Notes under the pieces: model-generated
The model's database searches: none
What the model saw: only the letters and a program-made list of their open reading frames with translations
Told to the model about the DNA's origin: nothing
Made by a program: the position numbers and the translations under genes
In this document: positions 27,081-37,103 of the stretch, piece by piece
Position numbering within the stretch: the first letter of the stretch is position 1
Layout: each line of letters begins with the position of its first letter
From: Bombella saccharophila
GTDB lineage: Bacteria; Pseudomonadota; Alphaproteobacteria; Acetobacterales; Acetobacteraceae
Assembly: GCF_026385475.1 (NCBI RefSeq)
Contig: NZ_JANIDW010000001.1
Coordinates: 558,001 to 622,000 of the forward strand
Direction of reading: 5' to 3'
Length of the DNA stretch: 64,000 nucleotides

Positions 27081-28259
27081 TTAAGTTAAAATTTCTCTCT
27101 CGTAGAGACGATGCCTCTTATGTGGATGAGGAACGAGCGATTCGGCAAGATTCCTCATGCCGACGTCGCTTTCTAAAACCCATCCTAATTCAACCCATTT
27201 ATAGGGTAGATTATGCCCTCGTCGCATAAGTTCTACAATTGCGAGAGAAGGAAGTAGGGACCCTAACATCGTGCCCCGCAGTTTACTCGTCACGCCAAGC
27301 AAAATGACACGCGCAGACCGAAATTTATGTGTGGCTAGGCGATAACCTAAGCGCATCCATCCCAAAGGACTTGGCGCGCCTCCTAGATCACCAGCAATAT
27401 CGTAAAGATTGGGAAGTACCATGGCCATGGCAACAGGTTCGCCCTTTTGGTCGATTTGCACATAATGCTCGGGACGAAGCAGCGGTTTGATCTGCTCAAT
27501 CATGGCCGTCATTTCGTAATCTTGCATCGGCACAAAATTATATTTATGCGACCACGCATCGTTATAGAGTTTCCGTAGAACTTCACCCTGGGTGGTGATT
27601 TCTTTTTTGGAAAGATCACGGGTTGTGATGCTGCTTAAACGGCCTTCGCCAAGCTTCAAATTGCCGGGAACTTTAAACCGCTCTTCTGTATCGTCAGTAA
27701 GCTCGAGTCGGTAACTGAGAAGGTCTTGTGCCTTTTTATATCCAGCTTGACGAATGAGCTCATCTAAACCTTCAGGGTGCCAGGGAATCGCAATCATAGG
27801 GGCAGAACATTGCCCATCTACCATGGTGCCGGTCTCCGCATTTCCACTAAGGGTTACAGGGCCGCGTACCTTGGAAATCTGCCGTTTTCTCAACCATTCT
27901 TCAGCTTTCTGTAGAAGGGCTGAAACGATGGAAAACTCAGGCAATGCGTCTAAAGCACCAAATTGACCAATAACTTCCTGCCAATGTTCGATGGCTTTGA
28001 GATCAACAATTGCGGCGATTCGTCCAACTGGCTTGCCATCACGCCATGCAAGGAAGTATTGAATCTCAGCATGCCGAAAAACAGGAGATTCCTTTGGGCT
28101 AAGCAAATGCCTCTGTTCCATATCTAATGGGGGGACAAAGCCAGCCATCCCTTTATAGATATGGCGCGGAAGTGTGATAAAACGACGTAAATCTCCCCGT
28201 GTTATAACGGGACGAACATCGATCTCAGCAGATTGAGGATTTGACGCTTCACATTGCAT
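27081..28259 (-). CDS. GNAT-like protein of unknown function
   Basis: 392 residues, no signal peptide. The N-terminal half (about 30-150) has a GNAT-like strand pattern, for example YFLAWRDGKPVGRIAAIVD, where the RIAA segment resembles an acetyl-CoA binding strand. A second acyltransferase-like region follows, with LRPEHYVQIDQKGEPVAMAMVLPN. The C-terminus KWVELGWVLESDVGMRN recurs in alphaproteobacterial homologues that databases variously name N-acetyltransferase or, I think wrongly, dATP pyrophosphohydrolase. Substrate unknown. Stands alone between thiL (convergent) and a short-chain dehydrogenase (divergent). Confidence 0.7.
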   Translation of the reverse strand: MQCEASNPQSAEIDVRPVITRGDLRRFITLPRHIYKGMAGFVPPLDMEQRHLLSPKESPVFRHAEIQYFLAWRDGKPVGRIAAIVDLKAIEHWQEVIGQFGALDALPEFSIVSALLQKAEEWLRKRQISKVRGPVTLSGNAETGTMVDGQCSAPMIAIPWHPEGLDELIRQAGYKKAQDLLSYRLELTDDTEERFKVPGNLKLGEGRLSSITTRDLSKKEITTQGEVLRKLYNDAWSHKYNFVPMQDYEMTAMIEQIKPLLRPEHYVQIDQKGEPVAMAMVLPNLYDIAGDLGGAPSPLGWMRLGYRLATHKFRSARVILLGVTSKLRGTMLGSLLPSLAIVELMRRGHNLPYKWVELGWVLESDVGMRNLAESLVPHPHKRHRLYEREILT

Positions 28260-28320
28260 AGCAATGGCTATACGCGTACATGACCTTTCCCGCTAGAGGG
28301 TAAAAAATGAAAGGGCCACC

Positions 28321-29124
28321 ATGTCCAGACCAGAAAACAAGACACTGACAGTACGACATCATATCCTTATTACGGGAGCATCCAGCGGTATTGGGGCAGC
28401 TCTCGCCGCTTATTATGCCCGTTCTGGCGTATGTCTGACATTATGGGGACGCAATGAGGAGCGTCTCGAAAATACGGCGTCCATCGCACGTGCTAAGGGG
28501 GCGAATGTCGAAACGCTTTGCATCGATCTTACTGAGGCCGATGCGGCACTTGCAGCTTTAATCGCAGCTGATGATAAGCGTCCGATTGATATTTTAATTC
28601 TCTCTGCAGGAATGGCCGATATTCGTCCGCATAATGCTCTTGCCGAATCTGCTGAGACCGCACTTAAAATGTCTATGGTTAATTTTGCTACACCTGTTGC
28701 TATGGCGACAGAGATGGCAAATCGCATGGCACAACGGCGGCATGGTCGTATTGCCCTTATGGGGTCAGTTGCATCTTTTCATGATCTTCCTTTGGCAACG
28801 GTTTATAGCGGTTCTAAAGCGGGAATCGGACGTTTCAGCACGGCATTACGTGCGGCAATGGATCCTTATAATGTGCGTATTTGCCTTATCGCACCGGGTT
28901 TTATTGATACACCTATGAGCCAGCGGCTTGATGGGGAGCAGGCTTTCCTTGTCCCTGTTGATAAAGCTGCACGTAAAATTGCACGGAGCATCAATGCTGG
29001 TAAGGCTGTCTTGGTATTCCCATGGGTATTTCAGCTTACGCGCCTTCTGGAAATGCTCCTTCCGCGGCCTATTGCACATAGAATTTTAAGGCGCCTTGAT
29101 GTGATGCAACATCCCGAAGGTTAA
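28321..29124 (+). CDS. Short-chain dehydrogenase/reductase (SDR family)
   Basis: 267-residue NAD(P)-dependent oxidoreductase. The cofactor motif is ILITGASSGIGAALA, followed by ILSAGMADI (the NAG-like motif) and the catalytic serine in MGSVASFHDLP with YSGSKAG giving the YxxxK pair. After the active site, LIAPGFIDTPMS is also typical. The C-terminal 30 residues contain a hydrophobic stretch (VFPWVFQLTRLLEMLLPRPI), as in membrane-associated SDRs acting on lipids, so a lipid-type substrate is possible. Divergent from the GNAT-like gene; glucokinase follows after about 110 bases. Confidence 0.88.
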   Translation: MSRPENKTLTVRHHILITGASSGIGAALAAYYARSGVCLTLWGRNEERLENTASIARAKGANVETLCIDLTEADAALAALIAADDKRPIDILILSAGMADIRPHNALAESAETALKMSMVNFATPVAMATEMANRMAQRRHGRIALMGSVASFHDLPLATVYSGSKAGIGRFSTALRAAMDPYNVRICLIAPGFIDTPMSQRLDGEQAFLVPVDKAARKIARSINAGKAVLVFPWVFQLTRLLEMLLPRPIAHRILRRLDVMQHPEG

Positions 29125-29234
29125 GGGCCTCACAGCGTAGTTATAGGGTGGATGGATCACATACGCTTGCAGCTCTGAAAATAGCGTGGGAAAAGGGGAG
29201 GAATATGCCTCGTTGCGGAGTAAAGGACAAATCC

Positions 29235-30218
29235 ATGAAAGAAATCGTTGCTGTTGATATTGGCGGAACTCACGCCCGTTTTGCTATCGCGCAGATCAAA
29301 GGGGGAAAAGTTGTTTCTCTTGGCGAGGCGACGACTTTGAAATGTGCAGAACATGCTTCATTAGCTTTAGCATGGGAGGCGTTTGAGCGATCCTTGGGTC
29401 GTCCGGCACCGCGTGAGGCAGGCATTGCTGTAGCGTGTCCTATCACAGGTGATATCCTAAAAATGACGAATAACCCTTGGATTATTCGTCCCGCTCAATT
29501 AGGTGCCCGCCTTAAGTTAGATGATTTCATTTTGGTAAATGATTTCGGTGCCATCGGTCATGCTGTAGCGCAGGTAGGGCCGGAATTTATGAATCATCTT
29601 TGTGGACCTAATACAGACCTACCTCATACCGGTACGATTACAATCTTAGGCCCTGGTACTGGGTTAGGTGTGGCGATTCTTCTTCGCAAGGAAGACAAAT
29701 ATCACGTCATTGAGACAGAGGGGGGACATATGGATTTCTCTCCTCTAGATGCTATTGATGACCATATTTTGTGCGCTTTAAGGGCGCGCTTCCGCCGTGT
29801 GTCTGTTGAGAGGATCGTATCTGGTCCAGGACTGACAAATCTTTATGAAGTTATCGCTGAGTTACAGGACCGGCCGATTACAATTAAGGATAACCGTGCG
29901 TTATGGACAACAGCCATGGAGGGAAGCGATAATTTGGCTGCTGCAGCGTTAGAGCGGTTTTTCCTTAGCTTAGGGGCTGTTGCTGGCGATCTAGCTTTAT
30001 CTCATGGCGCACACGCCGTTGTGGTTGCTGGGGGGCTTGGGCAAAGATTAGCGAATATTATGCCTCATTCTGGTTTTGCAGAACGTTTCCTCGCGAAAGG
30101 ACGTTTTGAAACCATGATGAGTGAAATGCCAGTTAAGATTATCACACATCCTCAACCTGGTCTTTATGGGGCTGCTGCTGCTTATGCGAGCAAACTTGCC
30201 TTTGCTGCACATCCTTAA
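29235..30218 (+). CDS. glk: Glucokinase
   Basis: ATP-dependent phosphorylation of glucose. I start at ATG 29235, preceded by AAAGGA, because the product then opens with the phosphate-binding motif IVAVDIGGTHARFAI; the open frame upstream (from 29148) is not conserved-looking. 327 residues. ILVNDFGAIGHAVA contains the catalytic aspartate region, followed by ILGPGTGLGVAIL, the VIETEGGHMDFSP sugar-binding segment and AVVVAGGLGQRL. Followed by a strong terminator. Confidence 0.93.
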   Translation: MKEIVAVDIGGTHARFAIAQIKGGKVVSLGEATTLKCAEHASLALAWEAFERSLGRPAPREAGIAVACPITGDILKMTNNPWIIRPAQLGARLKLDDFILVNDFGAIGHAVAQVGPEFMNHLCGPNTDLPHTGTITILGPGTGLGVAILLRKEDKYHVIETEGGHMDFSPLDAIDDHILCALRARFRRVSVERIVSGPGLTNLYEVIAELQDRPITIKDNRALWTTAMEGSDNLAAAALERFFLSLGAVAGDLALSHGAHAVVVAGGLGQRLANIMPHSGFAERFLAKGRFETMMSEMPVKIITHPQPGLYGAAAAYASKLAFAAHP

Positions 30219-30234
30219 TTAAGGGCGTTGCTAT

Positions 30235-30272
30235 GGGGGGGGCTCCGTGATGAGGAGACTCCCCCTTATTAT
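30235..30272 (+). terminator. Rho-independent terminator after glk
   Basis: A run of eight G plus CTCC pairs with GGAG and CCCCC around a GTGATGA loop, followed by TTATTATT. It lies 17 bases after the glk stop and 18 bases before the acid phosphatase start. Confidence 0.75.
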
Positions 30273-30289
30273 TGAAGGGCGTATTGTAA

Positions 30290-30925
30290 GTGCGATTATC
30301 TCCCTTACTCATGATGCTATTTGCTGCAATGGCTGGCTATGCTGGTTTTATAACAGGGCACCATCACTTACCCCATAAATCGTCTCTTCTTCCACCACCG
30401 CCTGCTTTTGGCTCACCTGAAGCCGAAACTGATAAACAAATTTACATAACAACCCAGCGCTTGGTTGGTTCCCCTCGATGGCAACAAGCTGTCGAAGATG
30501 CAAAACTAAATGATGAGGAAACTGTTCAGGCTTTTGTGAATGTTGAACAACTTCATCTCTCCCCGGTGGAAAAAGAAGCCCTCATACAGCGATTGAGAGC
30601 TGTGCAGGCTATGGCACGTCACGCTATGGGGGGAGAGAAATATATATGGCAACGCCGCCGCCCCTTTATAGATTATGGCGGACAAAGTTGCGTTATTGAT
30701 ATTCAACGCTTTCTTACAAGTTGGTCCTATCCCTCGGGCCATACGGTACGTGCCTACGCGCTAGCTTTGACTTTATCGAAATTATACCCCGAACATCGAT
30801 CTGCCTTCCTAGCAAAAGCCCATCAATTTGCAGAAAGTCGCGTGATTTGTGGGATGCACTGGGCGTCCGATATTAAGGCAGGTGAAGCATTTGCAACTCG
30901 ATTGATGGAGACTGTTGCCCCGTAG
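30290..30925 (+). CDS. Class A non-specific acid phosphatase (PAP2 superfamily), secreted
   Basis: 211 residues, GTG start. N-terminal signal peptide (MRLSPLLMMLFAAMAGYAG). The three PAP2 catalytic motifs are complete: KYIWQRRRP (KX6RP), SYPSGHTV (PSGH) and SRVICGMHWASD (SRX5HX3D). Together with the helical N-terminal domain this is the PhoN-like class A acid phosphatase, which removes phosphate from many organic monophosphates in the periplasm. Just downstream the accessory region starts. Confidence 0.9.
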   Translation: MRLSPLLMMLFAAMAGYAGFITGHHHLPHKSSLLPPPPAFGSPEAETDKQIYITTQRLVGSPRWQQAVEDAKLNDEETVQAFVNVEQLHLSPVEKEALIQRLRAVQAMARHAMGGEKYIWQRRRPFIDYGGQSCVIDIQRFLTSWSYPSGHTVRAYALALTLSKLYPEHRSAFLAKAHQFAESRVICGMHWASDIKAGEAFATRLMETVAP

Positions 30926-31144
30926 CTAGGCGTATGCGTGCACTGGGCATAAAAGCTAGATTTTATTCAGTTTAGAGGCTCCTTTGCAGTGTCATCCTTG
31001 TTATGAGGGACTGCGAATAAAGTTACCCAATGTTGCTATACAATTCGGGGTTTGGTGAGAGGATTGCTTCTTAATAATCCCTTCTCTATTTCAGTGATTC
31101 AGTATAATTATAATGTCAATAATGGATTCATATGGAGCTTAATA

Positions 31145-32677
31145 TTGAGAAAGAGCGTAATTGGTTTATTTATTCTCTCAAGTTTCTTACCCCTAAAAGC
31201 ATATGGATCTCCTAAAGTTAAAAAAGATAATGTGCAGTATAATTCGGGGAGGTCCTATGAAAGCGACCGAGGAATACCGCAGGATTATAAGAAAGTATTT
31301 GAACGGGAGCAAAAAGCAGCGGAGCAAGGAGATGCTAAGGCTCAGTATAATTTGGGAGTTTCTTACGAAAACGGTGAAGGGGTTCCGCAGGATTATAAGA
31401 AAGCCATTGAATGGTACCAGAAAGCAGCGGAGCAAGGAGATGTTAAGGCTCAGTATAATATGGGAATTTCTTACAAAAACGGCGAAGGAGTTCCGCAGGA
31501 TTATAAGAAAGCTGTTGAGTGTTTCCAAAAGGCAGCGGAACAAGGGTTGGCTGAAGCTCAGTATAATTTGGGAATTTCTTACAAAAACGGCGAAGGAGTT
31601 CCGCAGGATTATAAGAAAGCCATTGAATGGTACCAGAAAGCAGCAGAGCAAGGGTTGGCTGACGCTCAGTATAATTTAGGAATTTCTTATGATAACGGCG
31701 AAGGAGTTCCGCAGGATTATAAGAAAGCCATTGAATGGTACCAGAAAGCAGCAGAGCAAGGGTTGGCTGACGCTCAGTATAATTTAGGAATTTCTTACGA
31801 AAACGGCGAAGGAGTTCCGCAAGATTATAAGAAAGCATTTGAATGGTTGCAAAAAGCAGCGAAGCAAGGGTTGGCTGAAGCTCAGTATAATTTGGGGATT
31901 TTTTATAATCACGGCCGAGGCGTGCCACAGAATTATGAGAAAGCTGCTGAGTGGTACCAGAAAGCAGCGGAGCAAGGGTTTGCTCTTGCTCAGTTTAATC
32001 TAGGAGTTGTCTACGATATTGGTCGAGGGGTTCCGCAGGATTATAAGAAAGCCATTGAATGGTACCAGAAAGCAGCGGAGCAAGGAGATGTTAACGCTCA
32101 GTATAATATGGGAATTTCTTACAAAAACGGCGAAGGAGTTCCGCAGAATTATAAGAAAGCTGTTGAGTGGCTCCAAAAGGCAGCGGAACAAGGGTTGGCT
32201 GACGCTCAGTATAATTTAGGGATCCTTTATTATGATGGCCGAGGAGTTCCGCAGGATTATAAGAAAGCTGTTGAGTGTTTCCAAAAGGCAGCAGAGCAAG
32301 GGTTGGCTGACGCTCAGTATAATTTAGGAATTTCTTACGAAAACGGCGAAGGAGTTCCGCAGGATTATAAGAAAGCCATTGAATGGTACCAGAAAGCAGC
32401 AGAGCAAGGGTTGGCTGACGCTCAGTATAATTTAGGAATTTCTTACGAAAACGGCGAAGGAGTTCCGCAGGATTATAAGAAAGCAGCGGAGTGGTATCAA
32501 AAAGCTGCTGACCAAGGGTCTGCCTCAGCTCAGTATAGGTTAGGACTTTTCTATGCTATTGGCCGAGGAGTTCCAAGGGATTATACGAAAGCTATTGGAT
32601 GGTTCCAAAAAGCAGCGGAGCAAGGGTTTGCTCAAGCAAAATCTATACTAAAAGAATTCTCAAAAAGTCAGCCTTAA
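31145..32677 (+). CDS. Secreted Sel1-repeat protein (13 repeats)
   Basis: The long open frame starts at 31052, but I prefer TTG 31145, preceded by GGAG at seven bases, because it gives a signal peptide (LRKSVIGLFILSSFLPLKAYG). The mature part is 13 consecutive 36-residue Sel1-like repeats with consensus AQYNLGISYENGEGVPQDYK then KAIEWYQKAAEQGLAD; the last repeat ends in a short basic tail. Sel1 solenoids bind other proteins. Several units are nearly identical at the DNA level. Secreted Sel1 proteins occur in host-interaction and envelope-stress settings, but no partner is evident here. Confidence 0.85.
   Translation: MRKSVIGLFILSSFLPLKAYGSPKVKKDNVQYNSGRSYESDRGIPQDYKKVFEREQKAAEQGDAKAQYNLGVSYENGEGVPQDYKKAIEWYQKAAEQGDVKAQYNMGISYKNGEGVPQDYKKAVECFQKAAEQGLAEAQYNLGISYKNGEGVPQDYKKAIEWYQKAAEQGLADAQYNLGISYDNGEGVPQDYKKAIEWYQKAAEQGLADAQYNLGISYENGEGVPQDYKKAFEWLQKAAKQGLAEAQYNLGIFYNHGRGVPQNYEKAAEWYQKAAEQGFALAQFNLGVVYDIGRGVPQDYKKAIEWYQKAAEQGDVNAQYNMGISYKNGEGVPQNYKKAVEWLQKAAEQGLADAQYNLGILYYDGRGVPQDYKKAVECFQKAAEQGLADAQYNLGISYENGEGVPQDYKKAIEWYQKAAEQGLADAQYNLGISYENGEGVPQDYKKAAEWYQKAADQGSASAQYRLGLFYAIGRGVPRDYTKAIGWFQKAAEQGFAQAKSILKEFSKSQP
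31290..32650 (+). repeat. Tandem 108-bp repeats encoding Sel1 units
   Basis: Thirteen units of 108 bp inside the Sel1 gene. The block GGCGAAGGAGTTCCGCAGGA followed by TTATAAGAAAGCCATTGAAT recurs almost unchanged in units 3-5, 8 and 10-12. The high DNA identity suggests recent expansion or homogenisation, so unit number may vary between isolates. Confidence 0.85.
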
Positions 32678-32800
32678 ATACATTATATAGGTGCTGCCCC
32701 GTAAGGTGTGGAATTAGCGCATCGGTCATGTCGAGTGTGGGCCCGTTTCTTCATGCCTTTTTGATGTTGTAGCATAATTTCGTTGTAGGGGGGTGAAGAC

Positions 32801-33853
32801 ATGTTACGGTTGGGGGTTGTGATGCGGGGATTTGTTGCGGGTATTTTGGGTTTTGCGGCGTTTGTTTTTGTGCCTGGTTTGGGTGTTTGTGCTGATGGGA
32901 TACCGCCTATAGAGGAGGGGTTGAAGATGGTTGCGGCGCAGCAGCAATATGCGTTGCAACGGATGGGTTTAAGTGCGGCGTTAGCGCGGCAGGCTTTGTG
33001 GGGGGCGAAGTATAAGCCTGAGTCTATGTGCGCGCAGCATGTGAGTTTGCTGTTGAGCGGGTATGATGCGTTGCATCCTGAGTTCCCTGATGATGTGCCT
33101 CCGGATAAGGATAGGCAGGAGCGTATTCGCTTAGCGAATTCTGGGTCATGGCGATTTGTTTACGATATTGAGCAGGTGCATATTTGCAGCAAGGCCTTTT
33201 TGGATAAGACGCCTGCGAAGCCTGTTTATAACCCGGAGGATGATCCTGCGCAGATATTATTAAAGTGGTTTAAGCAGGACCGTCAGGGTGTGATTGATGA
33301 AATGTTACGCATGGGGGTTGAACGAGAGGTTGCGGAGGGTGCGGCTATAGTCGTGACCTCTCAGAAAGGGGGATATAAGAGATGCGTTGATAATATTTAT
33401 AGCTTATGGGCGCATCGTACACCGGGTATAGATGTGGATTCTCAGTTGGTGCGGGAGGTCAATGCGCGTAATCCGGGAACAGCGGAGAATGATTGTGATG
33501 TTGGGGTAATGTATGAGGACCCGAATGCGGAAGACCCTTATGCGCCATCGATTGAGCGGTTGCAGAAGGCTTTTCGGGAGGATCGGAAAGGGACGATTAA
33601 GAAGCTTGTGAAGGTTGGCGTTTTGAGGGGATGGGCGCGCGAGGCGGCAGATTTAGTTCTTTCCCGGATGGGGCGTTATTGGCGTTGTGCGGTTATTGTA
33701 GGGGGGTTGTTGGATAATATGGGGTATGAGTGGGGAGATATTACCCATCATGTAGATGCGATAAATGATGATTCTTATAATATAGGTAGTGGCATGGGGG
33801 ATAGGATTTGCGATGTGGATAATATGAATCATGACCCGCGGGAAGGATGGTAG
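32801..33853 (+). CDS. Unrecognised secreted three-module cysteine-pair protein, copy 1
   Basis: 350 residues, no family recognised. ATG 32801 follows an AGGGGGGTGA ribosome site; a signal peptide ends near GVCADG. The mature protein appears to contain three related modules of about 100 residues. Each starts with a helical stretch of the form xxxDRxGxIxxMxxxGVxxxxAxxAA, followed by a tyrosine and cysteine (PESMCAQH, GYKRC, RYWRC) and ending in a second cysteine (VHICS, NDCDV, RICDV). That predicts one disulfide per module in the periplasm. The coding strand is rich in G and T. Copies 2 and 3 follow in tandem. Confidence 0.8.
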   Translation: MLRLGVVMRGFVAGILGFAAFVFVPGLGVCADGIPPIEEGLKMVAAQQQYALQRMGLSAALARQALWGAKYKPESMCAQHVSLLLSGYDALHPEFPDDVPPDKDRQERIRLANSGSWRFVYDIEQVHICSKAFLDKTPAKPVYNPEDDPAQILLKWFKQDRQGVIDEMLRMGVEREVAEGAAIVVTSQKGGYKRCVDNIYSLWAHRTPGIDVDSQLVREVNARNPGTAENDCDVGVMYEDPNAEDPYAPSIERLQKAFREDRKGTIKKLVKVGVLRGWAREAADLVLSRMGRYWRCAVIVGGLLDNMGYEWGDITHHVDAINDDSYNIGSGMGDRICDVDNMNHDPREGW

Positions 33854-33862
33854 AGCAAGGGG

Positions 33863-34049
33863 TTAGGTTGCTCCGTTGTGAGGTGGTTTTTGGCCGAGGT
33901 TGCTGCGGATGCAATCTATGGTTGTGTGCCATTTGCCTTCCGCTATTTCTGTTGAGACTTCATGTTGGATGGCGATGGGTAGCCATAGGCCATCCCAAGG
34001 GGCTTTGCTGATAAGCTGATGGCTTTGGTTGGTGAGACTGTCCGGTTGA
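33863..34049 (-). pseudogene. Minus-strand coding remnant in first intergenic repeat
   Basis: On the minus strand an open frame reads SLTNQSHQLISKAPWDGLW, LPIAIQHEVSTEIAEGKW and HTTIDCIRSNLGQKPP before a stop. It looks like the C-terminal end of a real protein and is kept in all three intergenic copies. No start and no upstream part exist here. Family not recognised. Confidence 0.4.
33885..34049. repeat. 165-bp intergenic repeat, copy 1
   Basis: Begins GGTTTTTGGCCGAGGTTG and ends CTGTCCGGTTG(A). The same 165 bp follow each of the three tandem genes (copies at 35146 and 36437). Between this copy and the next gene lies a 15-base insert, TTAGAGGTGAGGTTA, that supplies the ribosome site of copy 2. 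Confidence 0.88.
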
Positions 34050-34064
34050 TTAGAGGTGAGGTTA

Positions 34065-35096
34065 ATGCGGGGATTTGTTGCGGGGATTTTGAGTTTTGTG
34101 GCGTTTGTTTTGATGCCGGGTTTGGGTGTTTGTGCTGATGGGATACCGCCTATAGAGGAGGGGTTGAAGATGGTTGCGGCGCAGCAGCAATATGCGTTGC
34201 AGCGGATGGGCTTGAGTGCATCGTTAGCGCGGCAGGCTTTGTGGGGGGCGAAGTATAAGCCTGAGTCTATGTGCGCGCAGCATGTGAGTTTGCTGTTGAG
34301 CGGGTATGATGCGTTGCATCCTGAGTTCCCTGATGATGGGCCGCCGGATAAGGATAGGCGGGAGCGTATTCGCCTAGCGAATTCTGGGTCATGGCGATTT
34401 GTTTACGATATTGAACAGGTGCATATTTGTAGCAAGGCTTTTTTGGATAAAACGCCTGCGAGGCCTGCTTATAACCCGGGGAATGATCCTGTTCAGATTA
34501 TGGCGCGGCGTTTTCAACAAGACCGGCAGGGGACGATTGATGAGATGGTGCAGGCTGGTGTGGAGAAGAATGTTGCGGAGAGTGCGGCTGTGCTTGTCAC
34601 TTCTCAGCGAGGGATGTATGCGGGGTGCGCGGTTGTCGCAGTTGATATGTATCGTCGGATACCCGGTATGCCAATAAGCCGAGAGGATGCTAGGGCAATG
34701 AATATGCGGAATCCTGATACGGCGGAAACGGCTTGTGATATTAACTGGATGTATAGGGACCCGAATGCGGTTGACCCTTATGCGCCATCGATTGAGCGGT
34801 TGCAGAAGGCTTTTCGGGAGGACCGGAAAGGGACGATTAAGAAGCTTGTGAAGGTTGGCGTTAGGCGTGTATGGGCAGAGAATGCAGCGGATTTGGTGTT
34901 GGCGCAGAAGGGACGTTATCGCCGTTGTGCGGTTATTGTAGGAGGGTTGTTGGATAATATGGGGTATGAATGGGGAGATATTACCCATCATGTAGATGCG
35001 ATAAATGAAGGTTATTATAGTATAGGGAGTATCGTTGGTGATGGGGTTTGTGATGTGGATAATGTGAATCATGACCCGCGGGAGGGGCTATGGTAA
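34065..35096 (+). CDS. Unrecognised secreted three-module cysteine-pair protein, copy 2
   Basis: 343 residues from ATG 34065, preceded by AGAGG; a GTG three codons earlier is possible. Signal peptide MRGFVAGILSFVAFVLMPGLG then VCADG. The first module is almost the same as in copies 1 and 3, the second (after NPGNDPVQ) is clearly diverged, and the third is again similar (DNMGYEWGDITHHVDAIN). The six module cysteines are conserved, with an extra MYRRIPGMPI segment shared with copy 3 but not copy 1. Function unknown. Confidence 0.8.
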   Translation: MRGFVAGILSFVAFVLMPGLGVCADGIPPIEEGLKMVAAQQQYALQRMGLSASLARQALWGAKYKPESMCAQHVSLLLSGYDALHPEFPDDGPPDKDRRERIRLANSGSWRFVYDIEQVHICSKAFLDKTPARPAYNPGNDPVQIMARRFQQDRQGTIDEMVQAGVEKNVAESAAVLVTSQRGMYAGCAVVAVDMYRRIPGMPISREDARAMNMRNPDTAETACDINWMYRDPNAVDPYAPSIERLQKAFREDRKGTIKKLVKVGVRRVWAENAADLVLAQKGRYRRCAVIVGGLLDNMGYEWGDITHHVDAINEGYYSIGSIVGDGVCDVDNVNHDPREGLW

Positions 35097-35119
35097 GTCG
35101 GTCAGTTCTATCTATCGGT

Positions 35120-35310
35120 GGGTTAGATTGCTCTAATTCTAGGATGGTTTTTGGCCGAGATTGGTGCGGATGCACTCTATGGTTGTGTGCCATTTGCCTT
35201 CCGCTATTTCTGTTGAGACTTCATGTTGGATGGCGATGGGTAGCCATAGGCCATCCCAAGGGGCTTTGCTGATAAGCTGATGGCTTTGGTTGGTGAGACT
35301 GTCCGGTTGA
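35120..35310 (-). pseudogene. Minus-strand coding remnant in second intergenic repeat
   Basis: Same minus-strand frame as at 33863-34049, ending HTTIECIRTNLGQKPS and a stop. The differences from copy 1 are partly conservative replacements (D to E, S to T) and the frame stays open, while the last residues differ. Family not recognised. Confidence 0.38.
35146..35310. repeat. 165-bp intergenic repeat, copy 2
   Basis: Aligned base for base in length with the copy at 33885-34049 and again followed by TTAGAGGTGAGGTTA and the ATG of the next gene. The distance from one gene start to the next is 1261 bp for copies 2 and 3. Confidence 0.88.
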
Positions 35311-35325
35311 TTAGAGGTGAGGTTA

Positions 35326-36384
35326 ATGCGGGGATTTGTTGCGGGTATTTTGTGTTTTGTGGCGTTTGTTTTGATGCCTGGTTTGGGTGTTTGTGCTGAT
35401 GGGATACCGCCTATAGAGGAGGGGTTGAAGATGGTTGCGGCGCAGCAGCAATATGCGTTGCAACGGATGGGCTTGAGTGCGGCGTTAGCGCGGCAGGCTT
35501 TGTGGGGGGCGAAGTATAAGCCTGAGTCTATGTGCGCGCAGCATGTGAGTTTGCTGTTGAGCGGGTATGATGCGTTGCATCCTGAGTTCCCTGATGATGG
35601 GCCGCCGGATAAGGATAGGCAGGAGCGTATTCGCCTAGCGAATTCTGGGTCATGGCGATTTGTTTACGATATTGAGCAGGTGCATATTTGTAGTAAGGCC
35701 TTTTTGGATAAGACGCCTGCGAAGCCTGTTTATAACCCGGAGGATGATCCTGTTCAGAGAATGGTACGGCATTTTCAGCAAGACCGACAGGGTGTAATTA
35801 ATGAGATGGTAGAAGGGGGAATTGATAGGTCGGTTGCGGAGAATGCGGCTATTCTCGTGAGCTCACAGAAAGGGAGATATAAAGAGTGCGCTCAAGAGTT
35901 AGAGAATATTATCTATCGTAGGATGCCCGGTATGCCAATAGGCCGAGAGGATGCGCGCGAGATGAATACTCCTGATCCTAATACAGCGGAAAGAGATTGT
36001 GACATTGGGCGGATGTACCAAGACCCGAATGCGGAAGACCCTTATGCGCCATCGATTGAGCGGTTATTGAAGGCTTTTCGGGAGGACCGGAAAGGGACGA
36101 TTAAGAGGTTGAAGAAAGTGGGTGTCCGATGGGATCATGCTGAGGATGCGGCAGATTTGGTGTTGGCACAGAAGGGGCGTTATTGGCGTTGCGCGGTTAT
36201 TGTAGGGGGGTTGTTGGATAATATGGGGTATGAATGGGGAGATATTACCCATCATGTAGATGCGATAAATAAGGGGTATTATACCATTGGGGGCTATCCT
36301 AATGGTGGTGGTGGTAGTGGTGTTGGTGATGGGGTTTGTGATGTGGATAATATGAACCAAAATCCCCAAGAGGGGTTATGGTGA
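35326..36384 (+). CDS. Unrecognised secreted three-module cysteine-pair protein, copy 3
   Basis: 352 residues from ATG 35326. From the mature N-terminus (ADGIPPIEE) through NPEDDP, 119 residues, it differs from copy 1 at a single position, yet the following ninety-odd residues are strongly diverged. The third module is again close to copy 1. A glycine-rich insert (GGYPNGGGGSGVGDG) lies before the last cysteine. Signal peptide and cysteine pairs as in the other copies. A secreted or periplasmic location is predicted; no enzyme motif is seen. Confidence 0.8.
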   Translation: MRGFVAGILCFVAFVLMPGLGVCADGIPPIEEGLKMVAAQQQYALQRMGLSAALARQALWGAKYKPESMCAQHVSLLLSGYDALHPEFPDDGPPDKDRQERIRLANSGSWRFVYDIEQVHICSKAFLDKTPAKPVYNPEDDPVQRMVRHFQQDRQGVINEMVEGGIDRSVAENAAILVSSQKGRYKECAQELENIIYRRMPGMPIGREDAREMNTPDPNTAERDCDIGRMYQDPNAEDPYAPSIERLLKAFREDRKGTIKRLKKVGVRWDHAEDAADLVLAQKGRYWRCAVIVGGLLDNMGYEWGDITHHVDAINKGYYTIGGYPNGGGGSGVGDGVCDVDNMNQNPQEGLW

Positions 36385-36423
36385 GGGAGGCGTGTTTAAG
36401 CTTATGAAGCATTAGGGTATTTC

Positions 36424-36699
36424 CTATCGAAGGGACGGTTTTTGGCCGAGGTTGGTGCGGATGCAATCTATGGTTGTGTGCCATTTGCCTTCTTGCATTT
36501 CTGTTGAAACTTCATGTTGGATGGCGATGGGTAGCCATAGGCCATCCCAAGGGGCTTTGCTAATAAGTTGGTGACTTTGGTTGGTGAGGCTGTTCGGTTG
36601 GCTTTGTGAAGGGAGCCAGTTTGCAGGAGCGTATTTGCTATCTAGGGTGAATGGCTGCCAGAGCGATGTCTGGGCGGAGGAGTGATCCTTCTGATGTGG
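36424..36699 (-). pseudogene. Longest minus-strand remnant of the unidentified convergent gene
   Basis: Third copy of the frame found between the tandem genes, here extending further: SSAQTSLWQPFTLDSKYAPA, then NWLPSQSQPNSLTNQSHQL, then GLWLPIAIQHEVSTEMQEGK and HTTIDCIRTNLGQKPSLR before TAG. The frame is blocked upstream by TGA at 36700-36702. The extended part is missing from copies 1 and 2, which marks where the tandem duplication joined. It may have been the 3' end of a gene convergent to the secreted-protein gene. Confidence 0.42.
36437..36600. repeat. 165-bp intergenic repeat, copy 3 (array end)
   Basis: Third copy, with several substitutions. Similarity to copies 1 and 2 stops sharply after TTCGGTTG at 36600, where the others run into the 15-base TTAGAGGTGAGGTTA joint. 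This is the right end of the tandem array. Confidence 0.82.
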
Positions 36700-36915
36700 T
36701 CACGATAGACCTAGCCTTAGTCTGATCTTGTAGGCGTCTGGATACGTTCCGAACGAGAGGGTTTCCTCTTTCTCGCCTAATTTGTATTTTACTTGCCATA
36801 ATTTAAACCTGTTGGGTTGAGTCAACATACATATATAGGCCTTGAGAGTTGGCAATTTTGTGCTGCCGATTGTGTGGCTTTGCCCGCGTTTATTGCGCGT
36901 CTGTCAGCGTGTTAT
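36690..36915 (-). pseudogene. Decayed tyrosine-type integrase, N-terminal DUF4102-like fragment
   Basis: On the minus strand one frame reads LTDAQ, a TAA stop, TRAKPHNRQHKIANSQGLYM and YVDSTQQV; after a frameshift at the GGTTTAAATT stretch the next frame continues KLWQVKYKLGEKEETLSFGT and YPDA. This matches the arm-type DNA-binding domain at the start of P4-like integrases ('LTD..IR.AKP...GLYL.V...G.KLWR.KYR..GKE..LSFG.YP'). The recombinase domain is missing. The fragment begins about 120 bases after the tRNA-Cys 3' end and points away from it, the usual layout of an integrated island. Confidence 0.75.
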
Positions 36916-37009
36916 CCCCAAAATCGTAGGATATACCGGCTCTCATGGGAACCAGCCGGGATAGTTATCATCCTCTGAATGGATGCTTTTCAAGGGGTTT
37001 GGCGTAATA

Positions 37010-37027
37010 GAACCATGGGAATGGTTC
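37010..37027 (-). terminator. Hairpin just after tRNA-Cys, possible terminator
   Basis: GAACCAT and ATGGTTC form a perfect 7-base stem around a 4-base loop, two bases after the encoded CCA of the tRNA. The following sequence is only moderately T-rich (TATTA), so termination is uncertain. Confidence 0.4.
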
Positions 37028-37029
37028 AT

Positions 37030-37103
37030 TGGAGGTCTGGGCGGGAATCGAACCCACATACGCGGATTTGCAGTCCGATGCATAGCCATTCTGCCACCAG
37101 ACC
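37030..37103 (-). tRNA. tRNA-Cys (anticodon GCA)
   Basis: Minus-strand cloverleaf: acceptor GGTCTGG pairs with CCAGACC; the anticodon stem-loop is CGGACTGCAAATCCG with anticodon GCA; the T-arm is GTGGGTTCGATTCCCGC, and CCA is encoded. 74 bases. It is the only tRNA seen in the window. It lies beside the integrase remnant, with the integrase downstream of its 3' end, so it is the likely attachment site of the former island. Confidence 0.95.

Follow-up and report, generated by a model that had tools for sequence, protein, structure and literature searches.

What are three similar secreted-protein genes doing head to tail beside a tRNA gene of Bombella saccharophila, and where did they come from? 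The array lies at positions 32801..36384 of a 64,000-nucleotide stretch of DNA (contig NZ_JANIDW010000001.1, positions 558,001 to 622,000), which was analysed as a whole and is called the window here. A sequence-only reading had described the genes as clustered secreted orphans. It had missed that a remnant of a baseplate-hub gene follows every copy and that the genes originated as cargo of a phage tail. The array is almost certainly, as judged from sequence comparison, phage-tail DNA that was duplicated and displaced and whose cargo genes stayed open. The features of the locus are the following.

32801..33853, plus strand: copy 1, 350 amino acids, signal peptide and modules 1, 2 and 3; six cysteines outside the signal peptide, two per module
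33863..34051, minus strand: baseplate-hub C-terminal remnant 1, 61 amino acids aligned at 93% identity (tblastn); convergent with copy 1, 9 bp between the stops
34056..35096, plus strand: copy 2, 346 amino acids; likely start ATG 34065
35139..35315, minus strand: baseplate-hub C-terminal remnant 2, 56 amino acids aligned at 98% identity (tblastn); 42 bp between the stops
35317..36384, plus strand: copy 3, 355 amino acids; likely start ATG 35326; glycine-rich insertion in module 3
36424..36666, minus strand: baseplate-hub C-terminal remnant 3, 77 amino acids aligned at 86% identity (tblastn); 39 bp between the stops
36703..36801, minus strand: integrase-like scrap, 33 amino acids and then a stop; Arm-DNA-bind_3 at E 0.016, below the curated cut-off
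37030..37103, minus strand: tRNA-Cys, possible former integration site

The relatives of these genes sit in the tail and baseplate gene clusters of contractile phage elements. We counted 54 open reading frames (ORFs) of the family in the window and in 33 fetched stretches (designated L; genomes are designated G). Homologues of tail genes were found within 5 kb of 47 of the 54, at a distance of 600 bp or less in 40 of them, and every such homologue was on the opposite strand in 47/47 cases. The seven genes without a tail homologue within 5 kb are those of L078, L117, L081, L086, L108, L115 and L116, one of which is located at a contig end. The neighbours were assigned by PHROGs to the hub (phrog_196), the sheath (phrog_205) and the baseplate wedge (phrog_6 and phrog_120). 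A family gene typically adjoins the 3' end of the baseplate-hub gene, immediately behind it, or fills the space that separates the spike and baseplate W genes, and the stop codons were at most 12 bases apart or overlapped in 11 of 12 convergent pairs, which were picked by hand. Four family copies alternate with partial hub genes in G133. Among 397 Acetobacteraceae genomes, the tail sheath was present in 48 and the family in 18; both were found in 13 genomes, the sheath only in 35 and the family only in 5 (Fisher 1.3e-9, not corrected for relatedness). The family genes fit the description of a phage moron, that is, a cargo gene in opposite orientation within a phage structural operon.

At the window itself, the phage traces consist only of the hub remnants and the integrase-like scrap. 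Since a hub remnant lies behind every copy, the duplication unit comprises the cargo gene and the hub 3' end. A unit found elsewhere in the genome of Bombella sp. ESL0385 (G009; L073) matches copy 2 and its hub remnant over 1248 bases with 98.4% identity, and such units therefore move between loci. The number of copies at the window locus, which the sequence-only reading had proposed to compare among relatives, does vary: one in Parasaccharibacter apium AS1 (G301), a draft assembly in which this count is uncertain, two in ESL0385 and three in the window genome (1.91 Mb in 17 contigs), which belongs to the same species as AS1. Two more three-module copies are located elsewhere on the window's contig, one of them cut by the contig end.

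The description of three head-to-tail genes for secreted proteins proved correct, with a signal-peptide-like start in 3/3 ORFs by our own heuristic, and so did that of a common mature start (ADGIPPIEE) and a common C-terminal stretch; DNMGYEWGDITHHVDAIN was present near the C-terminus of all three copies, while the middle was variable. Start codons were judged by eye, and the internal ATGs listed above for copies 2 and 3 are probably the true ones, while that of copy 1 is possibly the ATG at 32822. Pairwise DNA identities of the copies were 0.815, 0.825 and 0.859. An assembly artefact, which had been considered earlier, was ruled out as the source of the array, since misassembly of a single gene would not yield copies that are 81-86% identical in DNA, and hence 14-19% apart. 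An integrase remnant had been claimed beside the array; the scrap is indeed there, but its match to Arm-DNA-bind_3 falls short of the cut-off. A duplicated tRNA-Cys end was sought as an att site and not found: in 28001-37029, tRNA-Cys sequence does not recur in any run of at least 12 bases. A single sigma-70-like site was found in 32600-36900, on the other strand, compared with 5.7 in shuffles, and none was located upstream of the copies.

Each window protein is composed of a signal peptide and three modules of about 100-115 amino acids with two cysteines each, predicted to be all-helical. A signal-peptide-like start was found by the same heuristic in 48 of the 54 family ORFs, and we infer a periplasmic location and disulfides for these proteins. 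Modules 2 and 3 are homologous to each other (hhalign 99%), and module 1 has its homologues in proteins that consist of a single module (E 8e-12). The matches of modules 2 and 3 to the single-module profile were not significant (E 0.12 and 0.022, respectively), and a common pattern suggests a link of these two modules to module 1. Family members elsewhere have one, two or three modules, or a module followed by a C-terminal domain resembling TonB_C on visual inspection; a Pfam scan of two proteins of the last kind gave no match.

Among 12 paralogues taken from ESL0385, AS1 and the window genome, the three modules diverged very unequally. The mean amino acid identity was 0.98 for module 1, 0.57 for module 2 and 0.82 for module 3, with synonymous divergences (dS) of 0.09, 1.05 and 0.60 and ratios of nonsynonymous to synonymous divergence (dN/dS) of 0.09, 0.34 and 0.22, respectively. 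These ratios indicate that all three modules are constrained, and the dS of module 2, compared with that of module 1, indicates that the middle module was exchanged by recombination between conserved flanks and not merely mutated in place. The diversifying character that had been suspected for the array thus resides mainly in this module, which is also acidic (charge -2 to -8). A single-module orthologue, located between baseplate W and the spike (as read in L072, L075 and L076), was kept in eight Bombella genomes with a dN/dS of 0.12 (14 of 28 pairs usable). Sequence comparison demonstrated for the family an export signal, a phage-tail origin, recombination and purifying selection. The single-module gene is adjoined by a gene for a 196-amino-acid secreted-looking protein without a Pfam match (L076:10009-10599 and L072:7723-8313).

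The impression that the proteins belong to no named family agreed with our searches, which found none in Pfam, NCBIfam, PHROGs (no match better than E 0.007) or PADLOC, and no fold match; PDB sequences gave nothing useful (best E 0.18). The three-module protein was unmatched in PLSDB plasmids and INPHARED phages, the single-module protein in phages and the L086 protein in plasmids. Matches in IMG/VR comprised three contigs with three-module copies, three with single-module members and two with a larger fusion, and none was obtained there for the G133 two-module query. The 18 Acetobacteraceae genomes with the family represent 5 of 102 genera and include 11/11 Bombella genomes in the set and seven others; G252 is counted among them on a doubtful hit to profile positions 2-52 only, mostly the signal-peptide part. 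The only strong match among 385 class-level genomes was the window's own genome, two further matches (E 4e-4 and 8e-4) being set aside. No study of the family or of a Bombella gene transfer agent was found among the literature matches listed (titles and abstract starts). The term undescribed system, which had been applied to the array, is therefore appropriate for the protein family, which is unnamed in the libraries searched, but not for its setting, since phage structural operons with cargo genes on the reverse strand are already known.

The probable source of such cargo in Bombella is a phage structural cluster at a fixed chromosomal site.

G009:C1 about 410.7-438.8 kb (L138, L072, L139): structural cluster of a contractile phage; matching places in nine other Bombella genomes

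The cluster is located beside parE, aldo/keto reductase, dinB and repressor genes in 10/10 Bombella genomes examined (G007, the eleventh of the set, is outside this comparison), and these flank genes adjoin terS-terL-portal-capsid. The other flank (TRIC/YnfA) was found in the three genomes where the fetched stretch reached it (G002, G003 and G009). The distances of seven structural genes correlated with those of host dinB at 0.84-0.98 and of parE at 0.73-0.92, and the correlation was lower for the J gene (0.59 and 0.61, respectively). Nine structural genes had dN/dS values of 0.036-0.19, and the hub was the fastest-diverging structural protein (mean amino acid distance 0.42). The G009 element, the one among the ten that was read ORF by ORF (ORF lists by eye and Pfam on selected proteins), showed neither an integrase nor a replication gene, and its repressor has an S24 domain. 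The source element appears from its genes to be a domesticated phage and may be similar to gene transfer agents (GTAs) or PBSX. It shares with GTAs and PBSX-type defective phages a single chromosomal site throughout the genus, purifying selection on structural genes, the lack of a visible integrase or replication gene and an S24-type repressor; particles, packaging of host DNA and killing are hypothetical traits of the Bombella element. Prophages of Bombella are already in print as PHASTER calls, according to the excerpted texts of PMC9147383 and PMC12282179. This fixed element is a more surprising lead than the protein family and, being under selection, prompts the question of possible gene-transfer or killing particles of bee-associated bacteria in the hive.

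In 19 genomes that lack a family match, 20 tail clusters were examined for what their reverse strands carry. A signal-peptide-like start was found by our heuristic in 23 of 44 reverse-strand ORFs of at least 100 amino acids, some of which may be chance ORFs, compared with 4 of 192 tail genes, and 14 of the 20 clusters had at least one such reverse-strand ORF. A named Pfam domain was present in 7 of 20 chosen reverse-strand proteins: one Ltp lipoprotein, two Mrr nucleases, two OprB porins, one catalase, located in the spike-W gap of L137, and one peptidoglycan-binding domain.

L119:2083-2568, minus strand: Ltp lipoprotein (PF07553 Lipoprotein_Ltp, E 5.8e-30), in the gap before the tape-measure gene
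L135:11434-13080, minus strand: C-terminal Mrr nuclease domain with a signal-peptide-like start, in the spike-W gap
L133:4330-6000, plus strand: C-terminal Mrr nuclease domain with a signal-peptide-like start, further down the operon and opposite to the tail genes
L124:2634-4529 and L126:3733-5607, minus strand: OprB porins, with further secreted-looking proteins, inside tail operons and on the reverse strand of the operon

The L119 protein is 47-51% identical to phage proteins annotated as superinfection exclusion; it and the two Mrr proteins are encoded in other genera. The two Mrr proteins may be exported nucleases that act on entering DNA, for which a comparison with SNIPE, as presented in the abstract of PMC13190303, is suggested. 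With a genuine exclusion lipoprotein and nucleases that look exported among their contents, the operon gaps are promising sites in which to seek new entry-blocking defences. In L125 and L136, the reverse strand of the tail operon encodes secreted proteins that resemble one another, are arranged in tandem and belong to further unnamed families.

The closest phage record was Acetobacter phage phiAO1 (LC644971), whose sheath is 43% identical and which is collinear through the tail. Like the Bombella element, phiAO1 has cargo on the opposite strand and an occupied gap between spike and baseplate W, filled by a catalase gene where Bombella has a family gene. Its other opposite-strand cargo consists of SOD (superoxide dismutase), peroxiredoxin, sulfurtransferase and sorbosone dehydrogenase genes, and its cargo proteins are unrelated to the family. 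According to the excerpted text of PMC8566455, phiAO1 is without an integrase and predicted to be incomplete, yet mitomycin C yields particles with 43-nm heads, and its 34-kb phage genome was read from DNase-treated particles, which consequently hold phage DNA.

What, then, do the proteins do? Our preferred explanation, to which we give somewhat less than an even chance, is that they provide prophage-encoded entry exclusion at the cell envelope. In a contractile phage element the cargo gene and the tail genes lie on opposite strands. The unit of cargo gene and hub 3' end was duplicated and carried to several sites of the chromosome, one of them being the site near tRNA-Cys in the window; the sequence shows that the hub pieces became truncated and that the cargo stayed open. 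When a related phage or particle arrives, the exported modules would contact its tail tip, hub or tape-measure protein in the periplasm and so halt DNA delivery; recombination that swaps the middle module would alter which particles are recognised. The Ltp and Mrr genes in the same operon, the helical repeats, the acidic module 2, a weak match of modules 2 and 3 to Ltp and the diversifying middle are consistent with this proposal. Host contact or immunity against a periplasm-acting toxin had been put forward for the array; periplasmic protection is the part that we favour, with phage entry and not a free toxin as the presumed target, and host contact is disfavoured.

The family can be likened in its possible mode of action to Ltp (PF07553), the superinfection-exclusion lipoprotein of Streptococcus thermophilus phage TP-J34, and is not claimed to be an Ltp. 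Both are exported, phage-encoded and made of repeated small helical modules; a related tail operon (L119) has a true Ltp gene on its reverse strand, and modules 2 and 3 share a short motif similarity with Ltp. Alignment of these two modules with 18 Ltp repeats (hhalign, the best of nine comparisons) gave an E value of 7.8e-4 and a probability of 25% over 27 columns, and 0 of 100 column shuffles scored as high. The Ltp proteins compared are acidic, as is module 2, and the excerpted text of PMC3952083 reports that negative charges of Ltp contact the tape-measure protein. Unlike Ltp, which has two repeats of about 45 amino acids, the family has one to three modules of about 100, two cysteines per module, no Pfam match, no lipobox and a different operon gap.

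Several observations weigh against entry exclusion by such a mechanism. The similarity to Ltp was absent from module 1, the single-module proteins and the G133 modules, and PF07553 did not come up, at E values up to 10, for the proteins of the window, for further family members or for the 20 members of set A2; it was also absent from 60 relatives searched, so that Ltp is uncommon among them. No proper lipobox was seen by eye, and signal peptidase I fits better than a lipid anchor because a valine precedes the cysteine in LGVCADG; single-module members read ..AWA/D or ..ARA/D at the signal-peptide end. The Ltp gene is located before the tape-measure gene and the L133 Mrr gene further down, while the family sits in the hub-spike-W gaps. 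The tape-measure protein encoded by the G009 element carries a charge of only +2 at its C-terminus (last 60 amino acids), and PADLOC finds nothing for the family. Finally, the operon gaps also hold catalase and OprB porins and phiAO1 carries catalase, SOD and peroxiredoxin, which points to general fitness cargo.

General fitness cargo is the main rival, and we consider it rather unlikely. The proteins would help to withstand envelope stress (acid, oxidants, high sugar) and have no effect on phages. The phiAO1 catalase lies in exactly the spike-W gap, as does that of L137, and the phiAO1 genes for SOD, peroxiredoxin and sulfurtransferase lie elsewhere, all on the opposite strand. No enzyme family was found for the family proteins, however, and one would not expect a stress protein to have a middle module that is hypervariable and recombines. 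As further candidates, HdeA-like acid chaperones and Tai/Rap1a immunity proteins were considered; no search result supports them. Debris, that is, duplicated phage DNA that has not decayed yet, would account for the truncated hub remnants and the integrase scrap; it is a highly improbable explanation given three open ORFs in the window and the low dN/dS both of the modules in the 12 paralogues (0.09-0.34) and of the conserved single-module orthologue.

It is unlikely that the proteins serve for self-protection of a producer, in which the fixed Bombella element would make injecting or killing contractile particles and the exported proteins would shield siblings. Its fixed site, S24-type repressor and lack of a visible integrase, the placement of cargo among hub, spike and baseplate genes and the rapid divergence of the hub agree with such a role, but the particles and the killing are hypothetical for the Bombella element. 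No immunity protein is known for contractile particles, which also counts against it. The phiAO1 precedent cuts both ways in the excerpted text of PMC8566455: an element that likewise lacks an integrase and was predicted to be incomplete makes particles, but these contain phage DNA. A bolder version of entry exclusion, in which Bombella would keep a domesticated contractile particle at the fixed site and the family would be the recognition layer whose middle module decides DNA delivery, is improbable in our estimation. A factor that acts after release on the insect host, fungi or other microbes is very unlikely. The family does occur in all 11 Bombella genomes and in a few other, mostly small ones, whose insect association is a guess from genome size, but no release signal beyond the signal peptide was found, and in relatives that have the phage and lack the family the same operon carries unrelated proteins.

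Three orphan genes thus become members of a testable class: modular, exported cargo proteins encoded opposite to the tail genes in a contractile-phage operon found repeatedly among Acetobacteraceae. A few neighbouring genes were also recorded. A Sel1-repeat protein is encoded directly upstream of the array (window 31052-32677) with a tandem repeat of 108/324 bases, and it was not seen at the corresponding position in P. apium AS1. The two-module genes of L117 (G093) and L081 (G167) are located near galE-, TolC- and valS-like genes, as around the window array (names by eye), and terminase-like genes are also present in the G093 neighbourhood. The window genome has another prophage, whose early genes include a DUF3799 PDDEXK-like one and which carries a single-module member beside an Arc-like gene, and a SocA/Panacea antitoxin-like gene lies among tail genes at L075:9080-9631.

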